The position numbers and the translations under genes are program-made. The notes beneath the pieces were generated by a model. The model saw only the letters and a list, made by a program, of their open reading frames with translations, was not told the origin of the DNA and did not search any database. A stretch of DNA of 64,000 bases from Algoriphagus sp. Y33 (GTDB lineage: Bacteria; Bacteroidota; Bacteroidia; Cytophagales; Cyclobacteriaceae), in assembly GCF_014838715.1 (NCBI RefSeq), contig NZ_CP061947.1, positions 3,596,001 through 3,660,000 on the forward strand, read 5' to 3'. Of the stretch, positions 1 to 30,456 are shown in pieces (the stretch's first letter is position 1; the number at the start of each line of letters is the position of its first letter).

Positions 1-112
1 TTGACAGTCGTAGGCGGAAGGCCAACTCATTGCACTTGCGAACAATGTCTTCCATGTAAGTTTACAGCATTCATCACGATTCCCCTATAAGGAAAGGTAA
101 GATTCAAGACAC
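1..112. other. Left edge, end of an upstream cassette
   Basis: No convincing gene is visible. A minus-strand frame opens with ATG at position 55 and stays open to the window edge (18 codons), so the 5' end of a leftward gene is possible, but it is too short to identify. By position this stretch would belong to the cassette left of the first palindromic site. Confidence 0.25.
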
Positions 113-239
113 ACCACGGTCTAGTGTATGAGCAGTAGCGGATTAAAAACCACTAACTTTTCGGTTAAACACTTACCTTTATTAATATTCATTTCGTTTC
201 AATTTAGCACCAAACCCGCTATTGCTTATACACATTGTT
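113..239. repeat. attC-like palindromic cassette site 1
   Basis: Imperfect inverted repeat with 18-bp arms, GTGTATGAGCAGTAGCGG (124-141) and CCGCTATTGCTTATACAC (216-233), two mismatches, both transitions that would allow G-T pairs in a folded strand. The loop is about 74 bases. The right core is GTT (237-239), the first bases of the next cassette. The left core is a degenerate CAC rather than AAC. Layout matches sites 2-4, and overall length of about 122-127 bp is like the longer integron attC sites. Recombination function is inferred. Confidence 0.7.
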
Positions 240-252
240 GCCAGTAGTGTTT

Positions 253-834
253 TTATTCCGCTATTCGTTTTCTATTGACATTATACAAGTCAAAATTCGG
301 ATGTTTCCAAAATGCTTCAAGTCCGTTTTTTTCAATAAATTCCATTTCTGATGAGTAAATTGGATAAAGTCCGGCAATGTTAATTTTGTAATTTAATCCA
401 ATGTCAATATTCGAGAAATCTTTTTTTTCCAAAATTGATGGTGTAAAAACTAAAAAAGCGTCCATTTCAGATTCGTCAGATATACTTTCTCTAAAATTGA
501 TTGTATTACTATAACTAAATGGGCAATTTTCTCTTAATTTATTCGCTAAAAATCCCGCAACTTGAGCGAAAGAAATATCTTTTGAATCAACAGTAATTAT
601 CAGTTCAGGTCGTCCGAATTTCCAATCTGGATTATTTCCGAGTGATAGTCCGTAAGTTACTCCTGTTATCATTCCTTTTTCTGGAATATCTTTATAAACC
701 ATTGTTGTAACTCCAGCAATTCCATCTTTTTCAGATTTTTCTATAAAAAATTCGGGTTCAGTTTGAAAAATTCTGTCTAAATGAGCTAAATATTTTTCGA
801 CTGGTGTTTTTTTCTTAAATATTCCTTTCAACAT
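253..834 (-). CDS. Suppressor-of-fused (SUFU) domain protein, cassette gene
   Basis: A 193-aa cytoplasmic protein without signal peptide. The central part has the SUFU-family pattern: GVTYGLSLG near residue 58, a GRPEL segment, AGFLANKLR, PFSYSNTINF and AGLYPIYSSE toward the C-terminus, ending with a FWKHPNFDLYNV-type tail. Bacterial SUFU-family proteins are known as immunity proteins in polymorphic toxin systems, but no toxin gene accompanies this one, so a protective role is inference. It is the only gene of its cassette, flanked by palindromic sites 1 and 2, whose core-proximal sequences (GTTGCCAGTAGTG at the left, CATTACTGGCAAC at the right) are nearly complementary. The gene is AT-rich compared with the chromosome further right, which fits a transferred cassette. 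ATG start 18 bp inside the cassette end. Confidence 0.75.
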   Translation of the reverse strand: MLKGIFKKKTPVEKYLAHLDRIFQTEPEFFIEKSEKDGIAGVTTMVYKDIPEKGMITGVTYGLSLGNNPDWKFGRPELIITVDSKDISFAQVAGFLANKLRENCPFSYSNTINFRESISDESEMDAFLVFTPSILEKKDFSNIDIGLNYKINIAGLYPIYSSEMEFIEKNGLEAFWKHPNFDLYNVNRKRIAE

Positions 835-857
835 AAAGTTTGGTTTACATTACTGGC

Positions 858-979
858 AACGTTTAGTATATGCAAAGTAGGCGATTGCGGGCTTCAAACT
901 TATCAAACCGAGATGAAGTTGAAGCGAGCTACAACCGTTGAATTTACTGCTATTTCGCCTATTTTGTATATACATTGTT
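858..979. repeat. attC-like palindromic cassette site 2
   Basis: 122-bp site bounded by AAC (858-860) and GTT (977-979). The arms are GTATATGCAAAGTAGGCG (866-883) and CGCCTATTTTGTATATAC (956-973), 18 bp with two transition mismatches and about 72 bases between them. Unpaired spacers between core and arm are unequal (5 and 3 bases), as expected if extrahelical bases give strand choice. The left core belongs to the SUFU cassette and the right core to the mercury cassette. Confidence 0.75.
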
Positions 980-1004
980 AGCGGTTCGGGCTTTTTTTCT
1001 TCGG

Positions 1005-1211
1005 TCAGCAACATTTCTCGTCTTGTTGAATTGGTGGACATTTCTCGCTCCCATAACTGCAATAAACACAGCAGTCTCCTTGTTGTGGTTTCAATACAGT
1101 TTTGCAGTTTTCGCACTCGTAAAAGTATTGGCAAGCATCTGTCGGCATTGTTTCTTCTTTTTTGTGTCCGCAGTTGGGGCAAGTGATTGTTGATTGCAAT
1201 TTTATTTCCAT
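1005..1211 (-). CDS. GDCCVxC-domain small metal-binding protein
   Basis: 68 aa, with four Cys-rich clusters: CPNCGHK near the N-terminus, CENCK, the signature GDCCVYCSYGS, and a terminal CC. This matches the GDCCVxC-domain family of small proteins that often sit in mercury-resistance operons; some members carry selenocysteine, but this one has ordinary Cys codons. A thiol role in binding mercury or another soft metal is inferred. It is the last gene of a three-gene operon, starting 1 base after the merTP-like stop codon. The operon ends before palindromic site 2. Confidence 0.75.
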   Translation of the reverse strand: MEIKLQSTITCPNCGHKKEETMPTDACQYFYECENCKTVLKPQQGDCCVYCSYGSEKCPPIQQDEKCC

Positions 1212-1212
1212 T

Positions 1213-1812
1213 TTATTTTTCCTTTTTGTCTCTTACTGAATATCCTGTTCCGTTAATTGCTGTTTCGATTTCGGCTATGTTAGTTTTTGAGTTGTCAAAT
1301 TCAACGATTGCGTTTCCATTCTCGTATGAAGCAGTTGATTTGATTATTCCTGAAAGTTTGTTCACTTCGTGGTTTACGTGTTCTTCGCATCCTGCACAAG
1401 TCATTCCGCTGATAGTAAACTCAACGGTCTGTAAATTTGATTTGTCAACTACTATTACTTGTTTTTCTGTCTTAGGGTAGAAAATATGTGCATAGTAAGG
1501 AAAGGCAAGCATTACAATTGCGAATGCTGTAACAATTCCTAAAAACTTTTTACTCTGAATGAATTTTGGCTTTTCATCAGTTTCACAATCACAGTCTATT
1601 TCCTTTTTCGGTTTTAGTTTTTGATACCAAGCAAAACCAAGAACCAAAATTGTCAAACCAATTAAATACGGTCGGAAAGGTTCAAGCCACGAAAAAGAGG
1701 CAGCAAGTCCGCTTGTTCCTGCAATTAGTGCCAAAACTGGTGTAATACAGCATAGAGAAGCAGCGAATGCCGTTAAAATTCCTGCTCCGATTAGTTTATT
1801 GTCCTTTTTCAT
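1213..1812 (-). CDS. merTP: Mercuric transport protein MerTP (MerT-HMA fusion)
   Basis: A 199-aa inner-membrane protein. The N-terminal 125 residues have MerT-like helices: the first carries the vicinal pair in SLCCITP that takes Hg(II) from the periplasm, a second helix follows after a short loop, then a cytoplasmic stretch with CDCET, and a third helix. The C-terminal 70 residues form a heavy-metal-associated domain with the motif GMTCAGCEEHV, the MerP-like part. Fusions of this type are known in Bacteroidota mercury loci. The start overlaps the stop of the ArsR-type gene by 4 bases (ATGA), indicating translational coupling. No merA reductase is present in the cassette or elsewhere in the window, so uptake here must rely on a reductase encoded elsewhere, or the operon may do something other than full detoxification. 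Confidence 0.85.
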   Translation of the reverse strand: MKKDNKLIGAGILTAFAASLCCITPVLALIAGTSGLAASFSWLEPFRPYLIGLTILVLGFAWYQKLKPKKEIDCDCETDEKPKFIQSKKFLGIVTAFAIVMLAFPYYAHIFYPKTEKQVIVVDKSNLQTVEFTISGMTCAGCEEHVNHEVNKLSGIIKSTASYENGNAIVEFDNSKTNIAEIETAINGTGYSVRDKKEK

Positions 1813-2183
1813 ATTGTCTCCAAAATTTTGTTTTCGTCAAGTATTATGAAAAACGGTTCAAGCAAGTTTTTGTATTCGTTTGTCAGCGAATAGAAAATGG
1901 TCTGTGCTTGCCTTTCTGTTTCAATGAGTTTTCGGTCTTTGAGTTTTCGCAGGTGTTGAGAAACTGCCGAAATGGTCATTCCAAGAACATCACTCAGGTC
2001 GCAAACGCAAAGTTGTTTCTCTTCATAAAGCAGGAACAGGATTTTCAGTCTGACGTTGTTACCCGCCAATTCAAGTCCGTTCGATAAGTAGTCAAACGAG
2101 CCGTTGAGTTCTGCAACTCGGTCTTTACAACGGTTGATTTGTTTAATGTCCGCTTGTTGTCTTATGCAAGAATTGTTTTCCAT
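1809..2183 (-). CDS. ArsR-family metal-responsive repressor
   Basis: 124 aa from the ATG at 2183; a TTG 18 bases further upstream lies inside the promoter and is rejected as start. The protein has the winged-helix ArsR/SmtB fold: a metal-sensing motif CVCDLSDVLG in helix 3, followed by the recognition helix region TISAVSQHLRKLKDRKLI and the wing. The N-terminus carries extra Cys (NNSCIRQQ and RCKD) that could serve as ligands. First gene of the mercury operon, so it likely represses its own transcription until Hg(II) or a similar thiophilic metal binds. The promoter ends at the start codon, so the mRNA is probably leaderless or nearly so. Confidence 0.8.
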   Translation of the reverse strand: MENNSCIRQQADIKQINRCKDRVAELNGSFDYLSNGLELAGNNVRLKILFLLYEEKQLCVCDLSDVLGMTISAVSQHLRKLKDRKLIETERQAQTIFYSLTNEYKNLLEPFFIILDENKILETI

Positions 2184-2188
2184 AAACA

Positions 2189-2219
2189 CAAAGATAGTCA
2201 ACTTGTTTATTTAAGCAAA
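2189..2219 (-). promoter_or_regulatory. Bacteroidota-type promoter of the mercury operon
   Basis: On the minus strand TTTG (2219-2216), 19 bases, then TATCTTTG (2196-2189), an exact match to the TTTG-N19-TAnnTTTG promoter of Bacteroidota. The -7 box ends 5 bases before the ATG, so transcription should start at or next to the start codon. A repressor bound here would block polymerase directly. Confidence 0.7.
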
Positions 2220-2241
2220 TGCTAAAATACAATATTTTAAA

Positions 2242-2269
2242 AATAACCCGATTTGTTTCTCGGGTCGTT
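2242..2269. terminator. Bidirectional terminator-like hairpin
   Basis: ACCCGA and TCGGGT pair around an 8-base loop, with A-rich sequence on one side and GTTTTATT on the other. It lies between the intron and the mercury promoter, so it could insulate the operon from transcripts arriving from the upstream cassettes. Confidence 0.5.
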
Positions 2270-2286
2270 TTATTGCCTGACCGCTA

Positions 2287-4218
2287 ATCGGGTCAGGCAA
2301 GGGAATTGCACCCTCACCTTCCCACAGAACCGTGCGTGAGACTCTCACCTCACACGGCTCTTCATGTTTATAAATCGCTTGGTACTAAAAGTACTTAAGG
2401 TTGAACCAATTTCCAATGCTCAAACAGGCTCGGAGAGGCTTTATACTGGCGCTTCAGCCATCTGACTGCGGCCATCTTATACAGTCCCTTCTCCCATTTT
2501 ACCCATTTGAGCAGACGATGGTTGAGCTGATTCCATACTTCACGCATAGGCTCTCCCCGCAGCTTGTGGTAGTAGTTCAGCAGTCCTCTGATAATTGGAT
2601 TGAGACGTTTGGCAATATCCAGTAACGGCCTTCGCCACTTGTGGATTGCCATATCTCTAAACTTTCCCAATATCGATGCTTTGGATTTGCTGCTTACAAA
2701 TGTTCCCGGCAGTAGCATACCCTTCCCTTTAATGGTTTGCATGGTTGGTTTGATAGTAAAACCCAGGAAGTCATATTTCCTTGGATGCTTGGTCTCTGAC
2801 CGGCCACGAAGATTTACTATCTTGGTCTTTACAGGATGCAGTTCCAGATGGCAGGCTTTCATGCGTTGGCTGATTAGCCTAAGCATAAATTTCGCCTGTT
2901 TCTCTGTCTTGCAATGCACCACTACATCATCGGCATACCGTTCAAAGGGCTTTTCGGGATGAAACTTTCTCATCCATTCGTCTAAAGCCACATGCAGATA
3001 GAGGTTGGCAAGCAGTGGACTTACCACGCCTCCCTGAGGTGTCCCTGCACTCGTTTTCAAATACTCTCCTTCTGCCATAATACCTGCCTTTAGCCATCTG
3101 GACACGTATAGTGCGACCCATTCGTCCTTGCAGTAATGCCTCAAGGCTTTCATCATCAGGTCATGGTCAATATTATCGAAGAACCCTTTGATATCCAGGT
3201 CGACGACAAAATCATGTCCAAAACAATTCAGCTGTGATTGTTTAACCGCTTGGTGGGCACTGCGTCCGGGTCGATAGCCGAAAGAACTTTCATGGAATAT
3301 GGGTTCCAGTTGTCTCTCCAAGTGCTGACGCACTACTTGCTGGGCAATACGGTCTAGAAGGGTCGGTACGCCTAGTTTGCGAACTCCCCCATCCTTCTTA
3401 GGTATCTCCACTTGCTTGACAGGCGAAGGAAAATAACTCCCTGAGGTCAGGCGGTTCCACAGTTTATACAGTTGTGATGAGAGATCTTTATCCAAGTCCT
3501 CCCAACCCATCTGGTCTATACCAGCACTTCCTTTGTTAGATTTTACTTTCCTGTACGCTTGCCATACCATCAGTTTGGTAATTGGTTGCGATTTTGTTTC
3601 ATAATAGTCTGTCATCCCAAATTGCTTGGTTGTAAACTGGTTTGAAACCAAACATGCCTCCTTCCCGCCTCCTCGCTCAAATGTCCCCCGGACATTTGCC
3701 GTGCTCCATTCCCGTTACAGGAACTTCATCACTACTACGAATAGGTCTGTCCCCTATACCTCACCTAACCACAGGTGCAGGTTTCCTCTTTCGATTTGGC
3801 CTGACGGTATAGAGTTCACTTGTTCCCCCGAAATCATCGGGGCAGGCTTTGAAATGGCCTGTACTGTGTTCCTGCCAGCTTAACCCCGGATGCGGTGTGG
3901 CCGGTATCTTCCGGGCGTCTGCCACACTTAGTCATAGGTATAAACGTAACTACCTATTTTTCACATCTTAATTTGCCATATCGAAGCTTCATCACTGGTT
4001 CACTTTCGTTCAGCTCCATCAGTACTCACCTACAGGAATCGATGTTCCCATTTTTCCTTAACCGCTCACCACATCAGTGCTTCCACTAGATGCAGCGTAA
4101 GGTGGTTTGATAGCTGCTCCGGCAAGCCGCCATCGGAGGGCCTAGCTATTGATTTCTCAATAGTCCTCCATCCATTTCAAAGCATTCAACCTACTTTTAA
4201 GGTCGATTCAAGTCACAC
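2287..4218 (-). mobile_element. Group II intron inserted in an attC-like site
   Basis: A 1932-nt intron read on the minus strand. Its 5' end is GTGTGACTTG (from 4218) and its 3' end is CCGAT (to 2287), the AY ending expected of group II introns. A domain V-like hairpin, GAGCCGTGTGAGG pairing with CTCACGCACGGTTC, lies near 2328-2362, and the maturase ORF lies at 2395-3651. About 570 nt of ribozyme sequence precede the ORF. Removing these bases joins CCCTAAAACGT to TAGCGGTCAGG and restores AACGTTAGCGG, the core of a palindromic cassette site. IIC-attC introns are known to enter integron attC sites; this element behaves the same way at a non-canonical site. Class assignment was not computed. Confidence 0.85.
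2395..3651 (-). CDS. ltrA: Group II intron reverse transcriptase/maturase
   Basis: 418 aa. The N-terminal and central part is the reverse transcriptase: KSNKGSAGIDQM (RT0/1), FGYRPGRSAHQAV (RT2a/3), DLDIKGFFDNIDHD (RT3), GTPQGGVVSPLLANL (RT4) and the catalytic FERYADDVVV with YADD at about residues 239-242. A thumb/maturase (X/GIIM) domain follows, with GLLNYYHKLRG and the C-terminal KWVKW segment. There is no room for an HNH endonuclease domain, so second-strand cleavage must come from elsewhere, as in compact bacterial introns that use hairpins or replication forks as targets. The frame is intact, so the intron may still be mobile. It is encoded in the intron sense strand. Confidence 0.9.
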   Translation of the reverse strand: MVSNQFTTKQFGMTDYYETKSQPITKLMVWQAYRKVKSNKGSAGIDQMGWEDLDKDLSSQLYKLWNRLTSGSYFPSPVKQVEIPKKDGGVRKLGVPTLLDRIAQQVVRQHLERQLEPIFHESSFGYRPGRSAHQAVKQSQLNCFGHDFVVDLDIKGFFDNIDHDLMMKALRHYCKDEWVALYVSRWLKAGIMAEGEYLKTSAGTPQGGVVSPLLANLYLHVALDEWMRKFHPEKPFERYADDVVVHCKTEKQAKFMLRLISQRMKACHLELHPVKTKIVNLRGRSETKHPRKYDFLGFTIKPTMQTIKGKGMLLPGTFVSSKSKASILGKFRDMAIHKWRRPLLDIAKRLNPIIRGLLNYYHKLRGEPMREVWNQLNHRLLKWVKWEKGLYKMAAVRWLKRQYKASPSLFEHWKLVQP

Positions 4219-4341
4219 ACGTTTTAGGGCTTTGCGTTCGGGCGGGTTTCGGAGCACAAAGTTTCAATTTATTACTAAAGTTCATTAGAAGTACAAGGCT
4301 CCAATTTTGCACGTCAGCCCGCCTGACGCAAAACCCGTGTT
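4219..4341. repeat. attC-like palindromic cassette site 3, split by the intron
   Basis: The arms are GGGCTTTGCGTTCGGGCGGG (from 4227) and CCCGCCTGACGCAAAACCC (4318-4336), pairing with one bulge. The right core is GTT (4339-4341). The left core AAC is rebuilt only by joining the intron flanks: ACCGCTA (2280-2286) plus the AC at 4219-4220. Reconstructed length is close to 122 bp, like sites 2 and 4. Confidence 0.7.
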
Positions 4342-4358
4342 GGTGGCTGGGCTTCCTT

Positions 4359-4970
4359 TCATCGTCTCATTGATATGTTTTCGTGCACCCATTTTGCTTC
4401 TTCGTCTGGCGTTACTTTGTCTAACGTACTACTTATTCTGCTAAAAGTCGCTTGCGGAAAATCGTAAGGTTTGCTGTCGTCAAAATATGGTCCAACTACA
4501 CCTAAAAACCATCCGTCTTTTGCAGCCCAATGCGGTTCGCTCACTCTGCATTTAAAAACTTCATAGTGAACAAAGTTATTTTGTCCGTCAAAGTCAAAGG
4601 TTACACGTTTAATATGTTCAATTTCGTCAGGGCAAGCATCAAGTTCAGTCGGAAACTCTAACCAATTTGCAAGATTACTTTCAGCACCTGAAATTAAATT
4701 ATTGAACTCCTTCGGAAAAAGATTTGTCTTGTTGTGGTCTGCTAAAAGTTGAAATGCTGTCTGTCTGGTTAATATGTTTTTCGCAAATGGCAAAACATCA
4801 TTTCCCGTAATTTCTTGTCCACTTTCAAGTTTGTCGTAGAGTTCTTTAACTCTATCAAAACGTTCTGCGTTGAGTTTGTTGTTCTGTCGTTTAACAGTTA
4901 CAAGTCTGTAAACAGCAAAAACTACAATTGCTAAAACTATCAGTCCGATTATTATAAAAACTATTTTCAT
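4359..4970 (-). CDS. Hypothetical membrane-anchored protein, cassette gene
   Basis: 203 aa, family not recognised. Residues 1-25 form one hydrophobic helix (FIIIGLIVLAIVVFAVYRL) followed by basic residues VKRQ, so the protein is probably anchored in the inner membrane by its N-terminus with the rest in the cytoplasm. The soluble part is mixed alpha/beta, with a C-terminal region rich in aromatic residues (HWAAKDGWFLGVVGPYF). It is the only gene in its cassette; the cassette begins with GTTGGTGGC after site 3 and ends with GCCACCAAC before site 4, exact complements. No partner gene suggests a function. Confidence 0.65.
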   Translation of the reverse strand: MKIVFIIIGLIVLAIVVFAVYRLVTVKRQNNKLNAERFDRVKELYDKLESGQEITGNDVLPFAKNILTRQTAFQLLADHNKTNLFPKEFNNLISGAESNLANWLEFPTELDACPDEIEHIKRVTFDFDGQNNFVHYEVFKCRVSEPHWAAKDGWFLGVVGPYFDDSKPYDFPQATFSRISSTLDKVTPDEEAKWVHENISMRR

Positions 4971-5024
4971 TCTTCGTTTATTTTGAATTTGTCTGTCTGT
5001 GAAGTGTCAGTTAGCCTTGCCACC

Positions 5025-5147
5025 AACGATTATATATACTTCGGAGGGGGATTTTCTAGCAGTTCAGTATCCGCCGAGAACCGTAATAGGATAATGAGAA
5101 ACAGCCTGACTTACAACGACCACCCCCTCTGAGGTATATATGCTGTT
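5025..5147. repeat. attC-like palindromic cassette site 4
   Basis: 123-bp site from AAC (5025-5027) to GTT (5145-5147). The arms are TATATACTTCGGAGGGGG (5033-5050) and CCCCCTCTGAGGTATATA (5123-5140), two transition mismatches, 72 bases between arms. Spacers of 5 and 4 unpaired bases separate the arms from the cores. Arm sequence is unrelated to sites 1-3; only the geometry and the AAC/GTT cores are shared. Confidence 0.75.
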
Positions 5148-5172
5148 ATAGGGCGTTTTCCTGTTTTTCGTT

Positions 5173-5622
5173 TTATTGGTCTGCTTCATCGTCAGAGTAC
5201 AATATATCTTTCGGCAACAGGTCATTCTGTAAATATTTAATATCCGATTTTGTCCAAAAATTAAAATTCATTAGTCCCATTGTTCCGCTGTCAAACCAAT
5301 TTCCTTCTTTATCTTGAATTTGCAGTGTCCACTTATATGGTTTTCCATTTTTTGAAAACTCTTTAAGCCTTGCAATTCCTGTCAAACCGAAAACAAGTTG
5401 ATGAAGCATTTCATTTGTCTCTTCTTCGGTGTTGTCATAGTGCCAATGAAAAGTTCCGAAATGGAGTGTGTTTTCTCGTTGATCGGTCTGCAACAAAATG
5501 TCAAATCCTTTGTCGTCACGGCAAAATATTTCGAGTTCACTTTCATTTTTCTTATTGAATTTAATGTCAGGATACTTGTTAAGTTTCTCAACTACTATGT
5601 CAATAATATTTTGTTCTGCCAT
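5173..5622 (-). CDS. Hypothetical protein, cassette gene
   Basis: 149 aa, soluble, acidic at the C-terminus (YSDDEADQ), family not recognised. It contains a aromatic-rich middle (LHFGTFHWHYD) and KWTLQIQDKEGNWFDSGTMG, which suggests a small beta-rich fold. No signal peptide or membrane segment. It shares a cassette with the lipoprotein gene 27 bases upstream of its start, the only two-ORF unknown cassette here, so the pair may work together. The cassette ends are TGTTATAGGGC and GCCCTATAACA, perfect complements. Confidence 0.6.
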   Translation of the reverse strand: MAEQNIIDIVVEKLNKYPDIKFNKKNESELEIFCRDDKGFDILLQTDQRENTLHFGTFHWHYDNTEEETNEMLHQLVFGLTGIARLKEFSKNGKPYKWTLQIQDKEGNWFDSGTMGLMNFNFWTKSDIKYLQNDLLPKDILYSDDEADQ

Positions 5623-5649
5623 TGGTTTGCTTTGTCAATTTTCTTGCAT

Positions 5650-6093
5650 TCATTTTTTCGTTGTCGGGTCAAAGCCATACATGAAGTTGTTTAAATGTCC
5701 ATCTGAACTTTCAAGTCCAACAATGTCCATTAGTTCTTCAAAGTAGCTACAAACTCTTTCTCTGTCTTCAGTGTCAAGTTGTAAGTATAATTCGGCAAAT
5801 CTGTCAAGTCCGATTTTGATTGCATTTTGATATTCTTTGTCTGTTGCATTTCCTTTGTCTGCAAGTTTTTTAAGATCGTCTGCTGCAAGATTGATTTTTT
5901 CTGTCAAAACTGGCTTTAGACTTGGTTCACCTATTCCTGGATAAAATAGTTTGTCATCTTGTAGAAATTTTTCTCTGTTCTTAAACTCTTCAAATTTTGT
6001 CATTGCATTTTCTGGTGTTTTTATTTGTCCTTGTCCACAAGCTGTAAAAAGAAGTAAAGTCAGTGCAATTATTATGTTTGTTTTAAGTTTCAC
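5650..6093 (-). CDS. Cassette lipoprotein, DUF4844-like
   Basis: 147 aa. A lipoprotein signal peptide is clear: KLKTNI, a hydrophobic stretch, and a lipobox ending FTAC at residue 19. The mature part is helical, with motifs FYPGIGEPSLKPVL, NATDKEYQNAIKIGLDRF and DREDR-like ERVCSYFEELMDIVGLESS, which resemble the DUF4844 family as I remember it; the function of that family is unknown. The first gene of the cassette after the integrase, on the same strand as the integrase. Confidence 0.65.
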   Translation of the reverse strand: MKLKTNIIIALTLLLFTACGQGQIKTPENAMTKFEEFKNREKFLQDDKLFYPGIGEPSLKPVLTEKINLAADDLKKLADKGNATDKEYQNAIKIGLDRFAELYLQLDTEDRERVCSYFEELMDIVGLESSDGHLNNFMYGFDPTTKK

Positions 6094-6109
6094 AGTCGTC
6101 TTTTTAAAT

Positions 6110-6145
6110 GCCCTATAACACTTGTGTATACAGCATTCCCCTACC
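6110..6145. repeat. Half of an attC-like site at the array edge
   Basis: GCCCTATAAC (6110-6119) is the left core and is complementary to the start of the same cassette at 5145. It is followed by a 4-base spacer and a potential arm GTGTATACAGCATTCCCC, but no partner arm exists in the next 130 bases, which are integrase coding sequence. The array therefore ends with a half-site, either a boundary of the system or a scar. Confidence 0.55.
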
Positions 6146-7307
6146 CTATTGCGTCTATATCACCATTGTCTATAGGTCTTCGGGGTTCTGACGACACCAA
6201 ATTAAGGATTTCGGCGATACCATCAAGTGGGCTCTGGATGTTTTTGTTGGAAATGGACAACACATGGGTATAGATTTCTGTGGTCTTACTGCTCCCATGC
6301 CCCAGCAATGCCTGCACATATCGAAGATTTGTGCCCTGTTGGAGCAAGTGTGTCGCAAAGCTGTGCCGTAGGGTATGGACAGTTGCCCAAGGGTTGGAAT
6401 TGCTTTTCTTGATTGCCCTACGAAACACCGCCTGAATACTGGTAGCAGAATATTGGCCCCCGTCCTGTCCCTCAAACAGCCAATAGGATGGTCTGTATTC
6501 CTTGTAATACTGTCTTAGCAGCACCAAAAGAAGGGGCGAAAGCACAGTTTTACGGTCCTTTTTATTTTTTGCCCCTTTGATAAAAATATAGCCTTCGTCA
6601 GAGTGGATATCCCGGCTCCGCAGGTTGATCGCCTCACTGATTCTTAACCCGGCGCTGTAGATCAGCATGAGTACCGCACGGTGCTTAAGGTTCTCCACGC
6701 TTTGCAGGATTGATTTCACCTCATCTTGGCTTAGAATATTAGGTAGCGTTAGGCTTTTCTTAGGTCGCTGGATCTCATAAACGGTACGCTCTCTGCCCAG
6801 TACATGCTCATAATACGCTTTAATGGCATTGATCAGTGTATTCTGGGCACTTTCCGAAATCCTGTATTTGGTGATCTGATGGTACACAAACCCCTCGATT
6901 TCTTCCTTGGTCACGTCAAGGATATTCCTGGTTTCAAAAAACGACAGAAACTTGGCCAGTGAGGAAATATAGTTCTTGACCGTGGACGGACTGTATGCTT
7001 TGAGGATAAGCTTTTGTTCCAGATCGGCCAATGCCTGCATGGACTGCCTATTCAGGTTTTTGGAGGGAGCAGGTACTTTTTTTTCAGCAGACCTGACTTC
7101 TGATTTACCCTGATACAACCGCATGAGCAATTCCCAGTTTTCCCTTGTATTGACTAAACTCCACAATTTTTGGGTTGGATGGTAAAAGCTGGTATTGATG
7201 CGCTTCAATTGCTCCCTTTCCAGTTTAAGGGAATAGGGTACAAAGATTTTTATCCGGCTTGCTTTAGGCAAGGGCTGATATATAATGATTTGAGCGGGAC
7301 TTTCCAT
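6141..7307 (-). CDS. Tyrosine recombinase (integrase) at the cassette array
   Basis: 388 aa. An N-terminal arm-type domain (about 1-75) is followed by a SAM-like core-binding domain (about 88-175, KAYSPSTVKNYISSLAKF) and a catalytic domain with the full set of residues: R222 in AGLRISE, Lys in GAKNKKDRK near 247, H311 and R314 in HTLRH, H337 in LLGHG, and the nucleophile Y346 in TEIYTH. The insert of about 16-20 residues before the HTLRH box that marks IntI is absent, so this is a XerC/D-like enzyme rather than a canonical integron integrase. Its 3' end abuts the last half-site and all cassettes are co-directional with it, unlike class 1 integrons where intI diverges from the array. Whether it recombines the palindromic sites is inference from position. 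Confidence 0.85.
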   Translation of the reverse strand: MESPAQIIIYQPLPKASRIKIFVPYSLKLEREQLKRINTSFYHPTQKLWSLVNTRENWELLMRLYQGKSEVRSAEKKVPAPSKNLNRQSMQALADLEQKLILKAYSPSTVKNYISSLAKFLSFFETRNILDVTKEEIEGFVYHQITKYRISESAQNTLINAIKAYYEHVLGRERTVYEIQRPKKSLTLPNILSQDEVKSILQSVENLKHRAVLMLIYSAGLRISEAINLRSRDIHSDEGYIFIKGAKNKKDRKTVLSPLLLVLLRQYYKEYRPSYWLFEGQDGGQYSATSIQAVFRRAIKKSNSNPWATVHTLRHSFATHLLQQGTNLRYVQALLGHGSSKTTEIYTHVLSISNKNIQSPLDGIAEILNLVSSEPRRPIDNGDIDAIG

Positions 7308-7356
7308 GGTTTTTTAATGCCAGTATAGCTTATCCTTTGAATTTAAGTCGGGAGCT

Positions 7357-7384
7357 AACCGTTTGTAGTCGTTTGTAAACGGTT
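7357..7384. promoter_or_regulatory. dif-like 28-bp tyrosine recombinase core site
   Basis: Arms AACCGTTTGTA and TGTAAACGGTT (11 bp, 9 of 11 positions complementary) flank a 6-base spacer GTCGTT, the geometry of Xer/dif core sites. It starts 50 bp upstream of the integrase ATG. The left arm sits in GAGCTAACCGTTT, which resembles the AAC cores of the cassette sites. It could be the primary attachment site (attI analogue), a dif-type site, or an operator for the integrase gene. Confidence 0.45.
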
Positions 7385-7493
7385 GTTATCGCTTGCCAAA
7401 ATGTATGGCCGATCACTTTTTCCAAATTCCAGGATCCGGAGTAATGGAAAATTGGATGAAACAATTCCCGGTAAATAACCTTAAAAAAGAGCC

Positions 7494-7828: not shown

Positions 7829-8470
7829 ACTCCAAACCAATTTTCAAAATTCCATGTCCATAAATTTCGTGTACACCTAAAGCACGAATATTATTTAAAG
7901 TCTCTTTCTAAGCAGAAACACTAAAATTTACATGAAATTTACCATCTATTTCACCTAAAAAATGAGCATTCCCTTTTTCCGCAGTAGGATATGTTTTTAT
8001 CAACTCTTTATGGGACTTAAGTGTCAAACCTAAATTAACTTTATATTTTTTTTTACCCATTAGGCAATAATACCCCATCTAAAGCCCTATAATATTGCTC
8101 TGGAGTCCAACGTGAATTCAGATATGCCCCGCTAAATGATCCTATTGAGATAGTCGATTTACTTGCGCTTCTCTTCCCATACCCGTCTGACCATAGAAAA
8201 TCCCTATTCGTCCCCACTTGCCCGGTAGCCACTTCATTTTGGTTAGGATCCTCACTGTCGCTATGACTTGCAGTTCCTTGGTGAATAGTAACCGGCGCCA
8301 TCCCATCCGGATCAATAAACCTCATCGGGTTATTAAATGCATAATTGTATGGGAAATGCCGTCTCATCTGCTCTGCCATAGGATCCGCTACAAACCATCT
8401 TCCAATAGCAGGATCATATAGCCTAGCTCCGAAGTCATATAGGTTAACCCCTAGGTGGCCGTTTGCCTCC

Positions 8471-9935: not shown

Positions 9936-12900
9936 ATACTTTTCTTAATAACAGATTGCTGACTTGAATTAAACCCTGCCCCTTGTACATACGAACTCCT
10001 ATAATCCATAATGCTATTGGGATCACTTGTATAGCCTTGAGAATCGTGATCAAACTTAAAAAGACCATGGCCTAACTCATGAACGGAAGCATTACTATAT
10101 TTCCAAGTATCAACAACTCTTCCTTTAGGCTGCATACTTAGTTCATTATATATAGTAATCGAATGTGGATCACCTAACCTAGCGTATCCACCTGCGCCAA
10201 AACTATCCCTTGCTAGATTAAAATTCTTAATTGTAATTGTAGCTGTAGGAGATCCCTGCCACCAAGCTTTCAATCTCCCAATTATTGAGTCATCCTGAAT
10301 TTTTAACTTGGAATTAAATCCATTTTCGACAAGAGTATTTTTTAAAGTTTTGTAATAATCTTCCTTATCAAATCCTTGAGGAGTCACCCATCTATTTACA
10401 AAAATAGTCGGATCCCCAAATGAATTATTTTGCACATTTCCTCCTGTAGTTTGATAACTCCCATAAAAAGAAGAACTGGAGACAGTCGAATTTCTGGCAC
10501 TACTCTCCCCGTACCCATCTGACCATAGAAAATCCCTATCCGACCCCACTTGCCCGGTAGCCACTTCATTTTGGTTAGGATCCTCACTGTCGCTGTGATG
10601 TGGAGTCCCCTGAATAAGTTTAACCGGCCGCATGCCGTCTGGATCAATAAAACCCAGAGGATTATTGAAGGCGTAATTGTATGGGGAATGCCTCCGCATC
10701 TGCTCTGCCATAGGATCCAGCACGAACCATCTTCCAATAGCAGGATCGTAGAGTCTGGCTCCGTAGTCATACAGATTCACTCCCAAGTGGCCGTTTGCCT
10801 CTTTTCCGTTGTATAAATACGGATTTATTTTGATTCCACCATACTGGTAACCCAAACCACTGAGTTCCACTCCCCAGGGATCGTAATGCGTCTCCTGGAC
10901 AATCAAAGGGCCGGTACTCATGATGCTGAACTGGTCAAACCAAACATCATCAGAAGTCTCGTTGACCAAGTAGGTTTCTATGTACCCATCCTTAGGTATG
11001 GCGATCTTTTTGACCAGTTCTTCATGCTTGTTTCTGGCTTTTTTAGATAAAATTACTTTTCCCTGCTCATATAGTACAGAATCCGAATCATACAAGGCAT
11101 ATCCCATATAAGCTTCCGGTACCGGTTTCTGTTGCAGTTCGGTGATCACCAGCGCGATCACATTGGCAATGGCGATTTCATTCACTCCCCCAGCACTGAG
11201 ATTCTGTCCATATTCGGTGAGTTGCCGGATCATCTTCTTGTCCATTCCTGTAGGTATGAAGCTGGCTGGAGACAAGCGGATTTTCTTCGGATCCACATAT
11301 TTACCAAATACCCCTAGTTTCACACTATCCCCCCGTTGGACTTCCTGTGACCGGGAAGGCCCAAGGACCCTGTTTCTATCCGCATTGAGCCATGCAGTGG
11401 CGTAGCCACCGGGCGTTTTGTTATGCTCGCCAGCTCCCTGTCTCGATGCGCTGATATTCTCGAAATACTTCTCTTCCTCTTCAGCATTTTCAGGCTCCAT
11501 CGTGGCTATTCTGCCTCCGGATATCGGAGCCCGGATTACCTGCCTCACATTCCCCAGATGGTCTTTGACAAAGAATTCATATAGGAAAGCTGTGTTTTCA
11601 TAGGCAGCTCTCCCCTCTTCGTGTAGGATATAGGATATTGCGTTGTTTTCAAAAACAATTTCACCAAGATAATCAATGGTCTTAACTGTGGTTCCATTTG
11701 TATTGACTTGGCGAAGTTTCACGCCCAACGCATCATACCAATAATCAATTTTCTTATTGGTTCCGGAGAAAGTGATAGTAACCGGAAGGTTAAGATGGTT
11801 GTAGGTAATAGAGGTGATTTCCTTGTCCAGATTCTTGGTCAGGTTACCGTTTACATCGTATTCATAGGCCGCTATACTTCTTTCTTTAAAATCCTGGGAG
11901 GTATGAGTTGTGGAAGGAACGGCATCCGCCACTTGGGTTAATTTGTTTCCATTTAAGTTATAAGTATAGGTAAGCTGGTCTACCCAACCATAACTGGAAG
12001 AGGTAATCTGATTTCTTCTGTTCATGGTCAGAATATTACCATTAAAATCATAGGTCAAATTATTCACCGTGTACCTATCAGTTCCGGTTGAAGCTGTATA
12101 TACTGCCTCAAGCAACCTATCAGCTTTATCATAGGTATAGTTATAATTTACTTTGACGTCATTTTGACCCTTCCAGGAAATCTTAGAAATATTCCCGTTC
12201 CAATTATTTATGGTACCACCAGATTCATAAAACAATTCCTGTGCAAACACCTTTGAGGCGGAATTACTGACCTGAGGATCGTTGATTTTCTTCAGCCAGC
12301 CCCTGATGTTATAGGCAAAATCGGTCACTGCATCCGCTGCGTCTGGATAGCTTTTGGAAGTAAGCTCACCCAGCTGGTTATAGGTATGGGTAGCCAGGGT
12401 TACCGTTGCCCCAGAATTGATTTTATGGGTAATATGGCTCAGCGCTCCTGCAGCATTATAGACATAGCCTTTTGTGATGGTATAGGTACCAGGGGTCGTG
12501 TGCTGGGTAATAGTTGCCAGCGGTTTGTTTTCAAAGTCGTACTGGGTGGACACCCTGACTGTACCTGCCAGGTGGTGGTCAGATATGGTCTGGATAACCC
12601 TTCCCTGAGCGTCGTAATAGACCGCAGTTTCATACCGGGTATTATTTCCCAGGTTTTTTACCAAGGTCCCAGTCAATAATCCGGTGGTCTTGTTACTGCT
12701 GTCATGGTAGCCTGTAGGCTTCGCATAGGTGAGTGTTGATTTTCTGAGCGTGTAATTGTCATAATAATTTACCGTCAGCACATCCCCTTCCCCATTGCCG
12801 TCCGATGCTCTCGGGAAACCTCCGGCATTTGTGGTTCCTGTCTTGCCTGAGGTAGCGTTGATCACGGCATTGTTATTTTCCAATGTATTGACAAGTGCCT

Positions 12901-30338: not shown

Positions 30339-30344
30339 CTCTGG

Positions 30345-30420
30345 CTTTAGGGGTATTCTGAGAAGAATTGAGATAGTCCCTTCGAACCTGATCCGGTTGA
30401 CACCGGCGTAGGGAAAAGCA
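30345..30420 (+). promoter_or_regulatory. TPP riboswitch (THI element)
   Basis: The two hallmark elements are present: GGGGTATTCTGAGA (P2/P3 side) and CCTTCGAACCTGATCCGG with GACACCGGCGTAGGGAAA (P4/P5 and closing P1). Directly followed by a terminator-like hairpin and the thi genes. Binding of thiamine pyrophosphate would favour termination and reduce thiM-thiE-thiD-tenA expression. Confidence 0.95.
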
Positions 30421-30456
30421 GACAAAGCACCGTCCGGTATGCTGTCTTTCTTTTTA
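30418..30456 (+). terminator. Riboswitch expression platform terminator
   Basis: GACAAAGCACCG and CGGTATGCTGTC pair imperfectly, followed by TTTCTTTTT (30446-30454). Position between aptamer and thiM start fits a TPP-controlled intrinsic terminator. Confidence 0.7.

Follow-up and report, generated by a model that had tools for sequence, protein, structure and literature searches.

Can a tyrosine recombinase gather genes into an array of cassettes when it lacks the insert characteristic of integron integrases? The question is raised by a stretch of 64,000 nucleotides from Algoriphagus sp. Y33 (contig NZ_CP061947.1, positions 3,596,001–3,660,000 of a 6.38-Mb genome; hereafter the window), in which a recombinase gene and an array of hairpin-bearing cassettes occupy about 110–7307. 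We read this locus as an integron-like gene-capture platform run by a tyrosine recombinase family of its own, and not as an IntI integron, and put the probability of this reading at nearly nine in ten. On the minus strand, the order is recombinase, attI-like junction, cassette A, site 4, cassette B, site 3 with a group II intron, cassette C, site 2, cassette D, and site 1. A first-pass annotation, made from the letters of the window, had described small co-oriented gene units separated by four palindromic sites; the single orientation holds, with the correction that the recombinase and all cassettes lie on the minus strand, and the attI-like junction is an element that it had left unnamed.

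In the mechanism that we propose, an attI-like site at the 3′ end of the recombinase gene would take in circular cassettes at CG^TTR, with the adjoining recombinase as the presumed catalyst and a folded single strand as its probable substrate. Insertion at attI would leave the newest cassette next to the recombinase and all cassettes pointing the same way. Each cassette carries one hairpin site: its two ends form a duplex of about 15 bp containing a fixed wobble, and inward of this duplex lie a central spacer, a stem of 18–20 bp, and a loop of some 70 nt. In IntI, extrahelical bases are read by the I2 insert. Here, with no insert, the fixed G·T wobbles, the uneven central spacer, and the N-terminal HARP-like domain of the recombinase would probably do the work of I2.

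Hairpin sites and cassette ends

All four sites were found by R1, a covariance model trained on ten sites, of which window sites 2, 3, and 4 were part while site 1 stood outside the training set. On the minus strand, site 1 (116–239) was matched at 110–244 with 67.6 bits, site 2 (858–979) at 853–984 with 98.5 bits, site 3 (4219–4341) at 4213–4346 with 111.5 bits, and site 4 (5025–5147) at 5020–5152 with 80.1 bits. The four palindromes are thus recovered, with the qualification that the outer cores of sites 1 and 3 are interrupted; because of these interruptions, a plain scan of the 64 kb for AAC…GTT palindromes returned only 858–979 and 5025–5147. Palindromes arising by chance were rejected as an explanation, six Markov shuffles of one strand having given no match. 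A looser scan gave nine matches in five one-strand shuffles of 272 kb and, because shuffled sequence also yields matches, its weak matches were never used alone. A short core pattern, tried as an array marker (17 matches, one of them in the window, vs. 4 with the reversed pattern), did not single out arrays and was abandoned.

At site 3, the outer core is split at GT^T (ACGT^) by a group II intron of 1,932 bp (2287–4218, minus strand; Rfam RF01999 and RF00029; TIGR04416, 409.5 bits), which contains a reverse transcriptase/maturase gene (2395–3651). Its ends were placed from the restored core, with one base ambiguous, and once the intron is removed the core reads AAAACGTTAGCGG. At site 1, the outer core CCGT runs into a sequence resembling the 5′ end of an intron, GGTGTGTCTTGAATC, with decayed intron pieces further out (window 1–116).

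The cores of nine hand-defined sites are 116–118 nt apart (the outer core of site 1 being taken as CGT). In a wider set, which omits L044, L057, and hits below 30 bits and in which GTT was located in 107 of 117 sites, 98 of the 106 sites with both cores located span 115–121 nt, 118 being the commonest value (46). Every one of the 103 unique cores located has CGTTR, and all but one of the 112 inverse cores have YAAC; the full GTTRRRY occurs in only 11 of the 103, so that these cores depart from the IntI-type consensus. The first-pass annotation had seen no agreement with RYYYAAC beyond AAC; the core is more tightly constrained than AAC by itself. The loops share conserved motifs. In 68 unique sites, the arms stay in register across 20 nt; site 3 has a bulge.

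The arm mismatches of sites 1, 2, and 4, first noticed as allowing G–T pairing, indeed do so, since A·C on the gene strand corresponds to G·T on the other strand. In the inner stems of the 68 unique sites, we counted 134 bottom-strand and 37 top-strand G·T pairs, the preference being for the bottom strand in 58 sites, for the top strand in 1, and tied in 9; this count omits sites outside 113–122 nt, arm scores below 11, and repeats, and because the training sites of R1 were bottom strand, the counts of inner-stem wobbles and the site lengths are biased towards the model. At the cassette ends, wobbles number 55 on the bottom vs. 10 on the top strand, with a bottom wobble at position 11 in 41 of 54 cassettes, and 50 of the 55 fall at positions 10–11, outside the R1 model. 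Folding with DNA parameters was applied to 45 of 54 rule-conforming cassettes (defined below): the more stable strand is the bottom one in 36/45 circular and 27/45 linear forms, vs. 53/135 random segments. The folded bottom strand is thus most likely the one used in recombination, as in integrons, insofar as pairing patterns can tell.

The claim that each cassette start is complementary to the core-proximal end of the same cassette is borne out in the window and in the wider set of site pairs. The start of cassette A, GTTATAGGGC, is complementary to its end, GCCCTATAAC; that of cassette C, GTTAGCGG, read across the intron, to CCGCTAAC; and that of cassette D, GTTGCCAGTAATG, to CACTACTGGCAAC. 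Among 71 pairs of consecutive sites, the hexamer that follows GTT fully matches the reverse complement of the cassette end in 47 and matches it at five or more positions in 54 (the rule-conforming cassettes), vs. 1.4% and 5.4%, respectively, for mismatched pairs. In these 54, the longest open reading frame (ORF) is on the top strand in 49, and the median body measures 782.5 bp. The complementarity extends over about 15 bp, compared with 9–11 for attC as given in the available text of PMC2727003. The rule was also used predictively, by taking the bases after the attI GTT and seeking their reverse complement downstream in other recombinase regions: complement and hairpin were found in L053, L054 (two places), L055, and L056, and no clear hairpin in L045, L052, L058, L059, and L060.

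The attI-like junction (about 6115–6165, minus strand) sits where the recombinase gene has its 3′ end and finishes with a GTT core (complement of 6117–6119). It is kept up to GTT in relatives from the clade of the window's recombinase and in three recombinase remnants of the same genome, with unrelated sequence beyond. Conservation up to GTT holds within each recombinase clade, the junction sequence itself being clade-specific. The three remnants, all C-terminal (G000:C1 576920, 340948, and 3425466; L007, L008, and L014), each show the attI-like end and then a different sequence.

The array of the window might nevertheless be a decayed relic, the family having once been active and this copy being so no longer. 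We hold this to be unlikely, though worth serious consideration, given the interrupted outer cores of sites 1 and 3, the related copies that are broken (one of them common to seven species), and the remnants just described; on the other side, the window recombinase retains a full open frame with its conserved residues, and recent exchange is seen elsewhere in the family, both in a cassette 99.4% identical in two species and between the platforms of G009 and G042 (see below).

The recombinase and its relation to IntI

The recombinase gene (6141–7307, minus strand) encodes 388 amino acids in a full open frame, comprising an N-terminal HARP-like domain, a SAM-like core-binding domain, and a catalytic domain without the IntI insert. 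Pfam recognizes Phage_integrase (1.3e-37) and SAM_4 (2.4e-14), and the best NCBIfam model is that of the integron integrase, TIGR02249, whose 196.7 bits remain under the cut-off of 265. Three observations agree with the first-pass annotation on the lack of the IntI-specific insert: the TIGR02249 match covers model positions 2–181 and 239–314 and skips 182–238; the alignment to the IntI4 structure 2a3v falls into two pieces; and the KDR-to-RHS distance is 67–72 residues in 34 members (35 examined, one not measurable; 67 in the window protein), vs. 109 in five IntI and 74–75 in two Xer proteins (L246–L248 being called IntI from motif distance and tree only). No protein above the TIGR02249 cut-off was found in the 97 related genomes, nor in 14 controls, so that this search is without a positive control. 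R222, H311, R314, and H337 are invariant and Y346 is more than 90% conserved among 27 relatives; we take these five residues to be catalytic. A genome of the same genus, G053, carries a recombinase identical to that of the window. A phage or integrative and conjugative element integrase was considered and rejected, as sites and attI follow the recombinase and Pfam detects no arm-binding domain in 10 members.

HARP domains read DNA structure. Hits to the HARP family (PF07443) reach E 1 or better in 7 of 27 members, the best value being 8.4e-4, and a profile built from 18 N-terminal domains has the HARP domain of SMARCAL1 as its top PDB match (4o66, E 8.4e-6; next match, 0.028). From these resemblances we infer that the HARP-like domain probably takes the place of I2.

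Integrons are considered to rely on the I2 insert, which in the available text is said to be one that "has not been identified elsewhere" (Escudero et al. 2016, PMC4792948), and Smyshlyaev et al. (2021), as far as the accessible description goes, regard it as essential for integron function in treating an integron-like subgroup of simple tyrosine recombinases. The present proteins can be likened by description to that subgroup; here, however, insert-less members front cassette arrays. In a tree of 120 proteins obtained by a quick method, five IntI and one further row form a single clade among insert-less relatives (Shimodaira–Hasegawa-like approximate likelihood ratio test at the forks, about 83–85), which is at most a hint, from protein comparison, of kinship between this recombinase group and IntI.

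The platform shares with IntI-type integrons a recombinase, an attI, and a mostly co-oriented cassette array with one hairpin site per cassette, as well as exchange at a GTT core, the bottom-strand bias, complementary cassette ends, and a bottom-strand G adjoining AAC, the latter being reported for most attC sites in the accessible part of PMC2727003. It differs in lacking the insert and the GTTRRRY consensus, in its near-constant site length, in apparently having wobbles instead of extrahelical bases (68 sites measured), in the placement of attI, which here lies at the recombinase 3′ end and is followed by co-directional cassettes, and in the HARP-like N-terminal domain. We keep it apart from the IntI integrons on two grounds, having looked for both the insert and GTTRRRY and found that neither characterizes this family. 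The explanation that it is an ordinary IntI-type integron with a divergent integrase and with cassettes on its downstream side is accordingly improbable: the ranking of TIGR02249 as best model, the 31% identity at which IntI1 matches, the position of IntI among these proteins in the tree, and the strand bias and G next to AAC common with attC all speak for it, but have to be set against the score below cut-off, an insert missing in 34/34 measured members, GTTRRRY in 11/103 cores, and the failure of R1 to find anything in a class 1 integron region or in the Thiodictyon IntI region.

Linkage of sites to the recombinase and distribution

Linkage was examined in regions around recombinase matches at E 1e-60 or better in the 97 related genomes, with sites counted at 30 bits or more. 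The 115 R1 sites found in 52 sources are all downstream of the recombinase and on the expected strand, none being upstream or on the opposite strand. The sources include L044, from a second genome with the array of the window (113 sites when it is left aside), and a single representative of seven identical broken copies. At least 2 kb of downstream sequence was available in 42 sources, 37 of which carry a site. Within 4 kb of 51 recombinases, we counted 62 sites in 167 kb downstream vs. none in 175 kb upstream, which disposes of the idea that the palindromes are equally frequent away from recombinases. Among 80 loci from named genomes, 26 have sites, in 64 rows that are all downstream on the expected strand; four further rows are mirror images. 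A Chryseobacterium plasmid carries five sites behind its recombinase. As to the broken copies (L046–L052), seven species of the genus share one of them, with the same 3′ region and first downstream sequence, and no R1 site was present in any of the seven fetched regions.

The covariance-model search of related genomes proposed by the first-pass annotation, run at E 1e-3, was positive in 76 of the 97 relatives. R1 was also positive in 148 of 296 genomes sampled across Bacteroidota (E 1e-5) and in none of 200 genomes from the phylum of a Sphingobium genome, the same model being positive in the relatives, in the Bacteroidota sample, and in 3/3 Bacteroidota among genomes encoding related recombinases, where it found nothing in 20 labelled otherwise. 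The genome of the window has 14 sites at E 1e-3, with a lone array at 520–532 kb. Such lone arrays recall the clusters of attC sites lacking integron-integrases (CALINs), but the site type differs, none being detected in the two IntI regions searched.

These data also bear on the possibility that the cassettes are moved by another enzyme, for example host XerC/XerD, the recombinase being a mere neighbor. Xer-like proteins are encoded in the same genome, and some genomes (e.g., G047 and G060) have sites without a recombinase match at E 1e-60. This explanation is nonetheless doubtful in the extreme, since in 52 regions all sites, without exception, share the same side and strand relative to the recombinase, since a clade-specific attI-like sequence abuts the recombinase 3′ end, and since relatives of the sites occur in 0/200 genomes of another phylum, whose Xer content was not checked. 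XerCD/dif (pdif) modules are bounded by 28-bp dif-like sites; the sites described here span about 120 nt, and such modules were set aside on this ground.

Returning to a platform served by its own recombinase, its presence without the insert in 148/296 sampled Bacteroidota would amount to an extensive system of gene exchange, possibly invisible to current tools. Integrons are regarded as scarce in this phylum: according to the part of the text available, IntegronFinder 2.0 reports one complete integron in Bacteroidota, in Salinibacter ruber (PMC9024848), and a review, in its accessible part, counts Bacteroidota among integron carriers (PMC8618304). We found no description of such platforms in the literature searched, preprints and most subscription papers lying outside its scope. 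It is an even bet that these loci form a second, mechanistically separate integron class, in about half of the sampled Bacteroidota, whose recombinases recognize cassette sites folded from single-stranded DNA, the HARP-like domain and fixed wobbles replacing I2 and extrahelical bases, and that IntI may be a branch of a wider group. Such platforms would let one test in a natural setting how the use of folded single strands arises in a recombinase; a concrete prediction comes from the HARP-like domain.

Exchange of cassettes between species

The first-pass annotation had named cassette-precise gain and loss as the behavior to look for, and comparisons between species place the exchange points precisely at the GTT core. 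G037 and G033 share a 716-bp cassette at 99.4% identity, with homology from GTTATAGG to the next core; 19/60 bases agree in the right flank and 36/60 in the left, which holds the ends of two different sites. Before the attI GTT, G009 and G042 have platforms that match at 198/200 positions, and after it at 59/200. The reverse is seen between G034 and G045, whose recombinases belong to different clades (58/200 before GTT, 200/200 after), and these two diverge past the next core. Relatives of cassette B occur in G394 (93%) and G352 (85%), homology beginning exactly at GTTGGTGG with unrelated sequence before, and a 357-bp cassette is present eight times across two arrays of G093. That the hairpins are terminators or other repeats, between which cassettes are swapped by homologous recombination, is hardly credible, conserved loop motifs being able to supply homology, but breakpoints lying at the GTT core with unrelated arms on the two sides, cassette ends complementing their own starts, and strand-specific wobbles being unexpected of DNA-level homology.

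Several observations weigh against a platform of the kind proposed. Five of the 42 regions are without a 30-bit site (L046, L120, L127, L134, and L147), although L147 has matches of 28.3 and 23.4 bits, below this line; among the named loci, a weak match in L187 does not fit the pattern; and a site lies upstream, on the same strand, of two of the three recombinase remnants. The complementarity rule is broken in 17 of the 71 consecutive pairs. HARP remains under the Pfam cut-off and is not detected in the window protein itself. The site-bearing recombinases are not monophyletic, because 25 changes are needed on the tree, many site-less rows of which are short contigs or possibly have divergent sites. 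The loop of the site differs in the cassette shared by G034 and G045, and so does the hairpin after cassette B in G394 and G352 (L159 and L160), with the same inverse core; because of these two cases, the hairpin is not always carried unchanged. It may be exchanged separately from the cassette body or be fast-evolving, and the hairpin after cassette B in G394 is still an R1 site.

The cassette bodies of the window, all on the minus strand, have varied contents. Cassette A (5145–6119) holds a DUF4844 lipoprotein-like gene (5650–6093, 5.2e-35) and a gene for a 149-residue protein of no known family (5173–5622), two genes that occur separately in other genomes. Cassette B (4339–5027) has one gene (4359–4970), its family unassigned. 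Cassette C (977–2286) encodes, according to Pfam, an ArsR-like regulator (1809–2201) and a MerT plus HMA protein (1213–1812), next to a small ORF (1005–1211), and cassette D (237–860) a SUFU-domain protein (253–834, SUFU 4e-10). In the wider set, cassette proteins match restriction-modification and abortive-infection models among many without assignment (48 proteins scanned, from 48 of 49 ORFs). A GACGAC motif at cassette starts is enriched but rare (9/107; background about 0.005 per window).

A family of group II introns recurs in the GT of the cassette-site core, in cassette direction (window 2287–4218 and 1–116; L058:771; L066:1627), and related 5′ ends occur in the same genome after ACGT^ at 575.7 kb and CGGT^ at 520.4 kb. 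Group IIC-attC introns likewise lie inside the core of a cassette hairpin site; in the available text, they are mostly opposite to cassettes, at TTGT/T of the bottom strand (PMC7923331), whereas the window intron follows the cassette direction, at GT^T of the top strand.

Just 5′ of the recombinase start (window about 7355–7390) are ACAAACGAC/ACAAACG-like repeats, also present in L045, L053, L054, L055, and L056, which are possibly a regulatory or accessory binding site in the clade of the window's recombinase. Beside the platform, a direct repeat of 300 nt (8147–8446 and 10479–10778, 83% identical) falls in the C-terminal part of long ORFs, and a thiamine pyrophosphate (TPP) riboswitch is found at 30339–30431 (Rfam RF00059, 72.7 bits).

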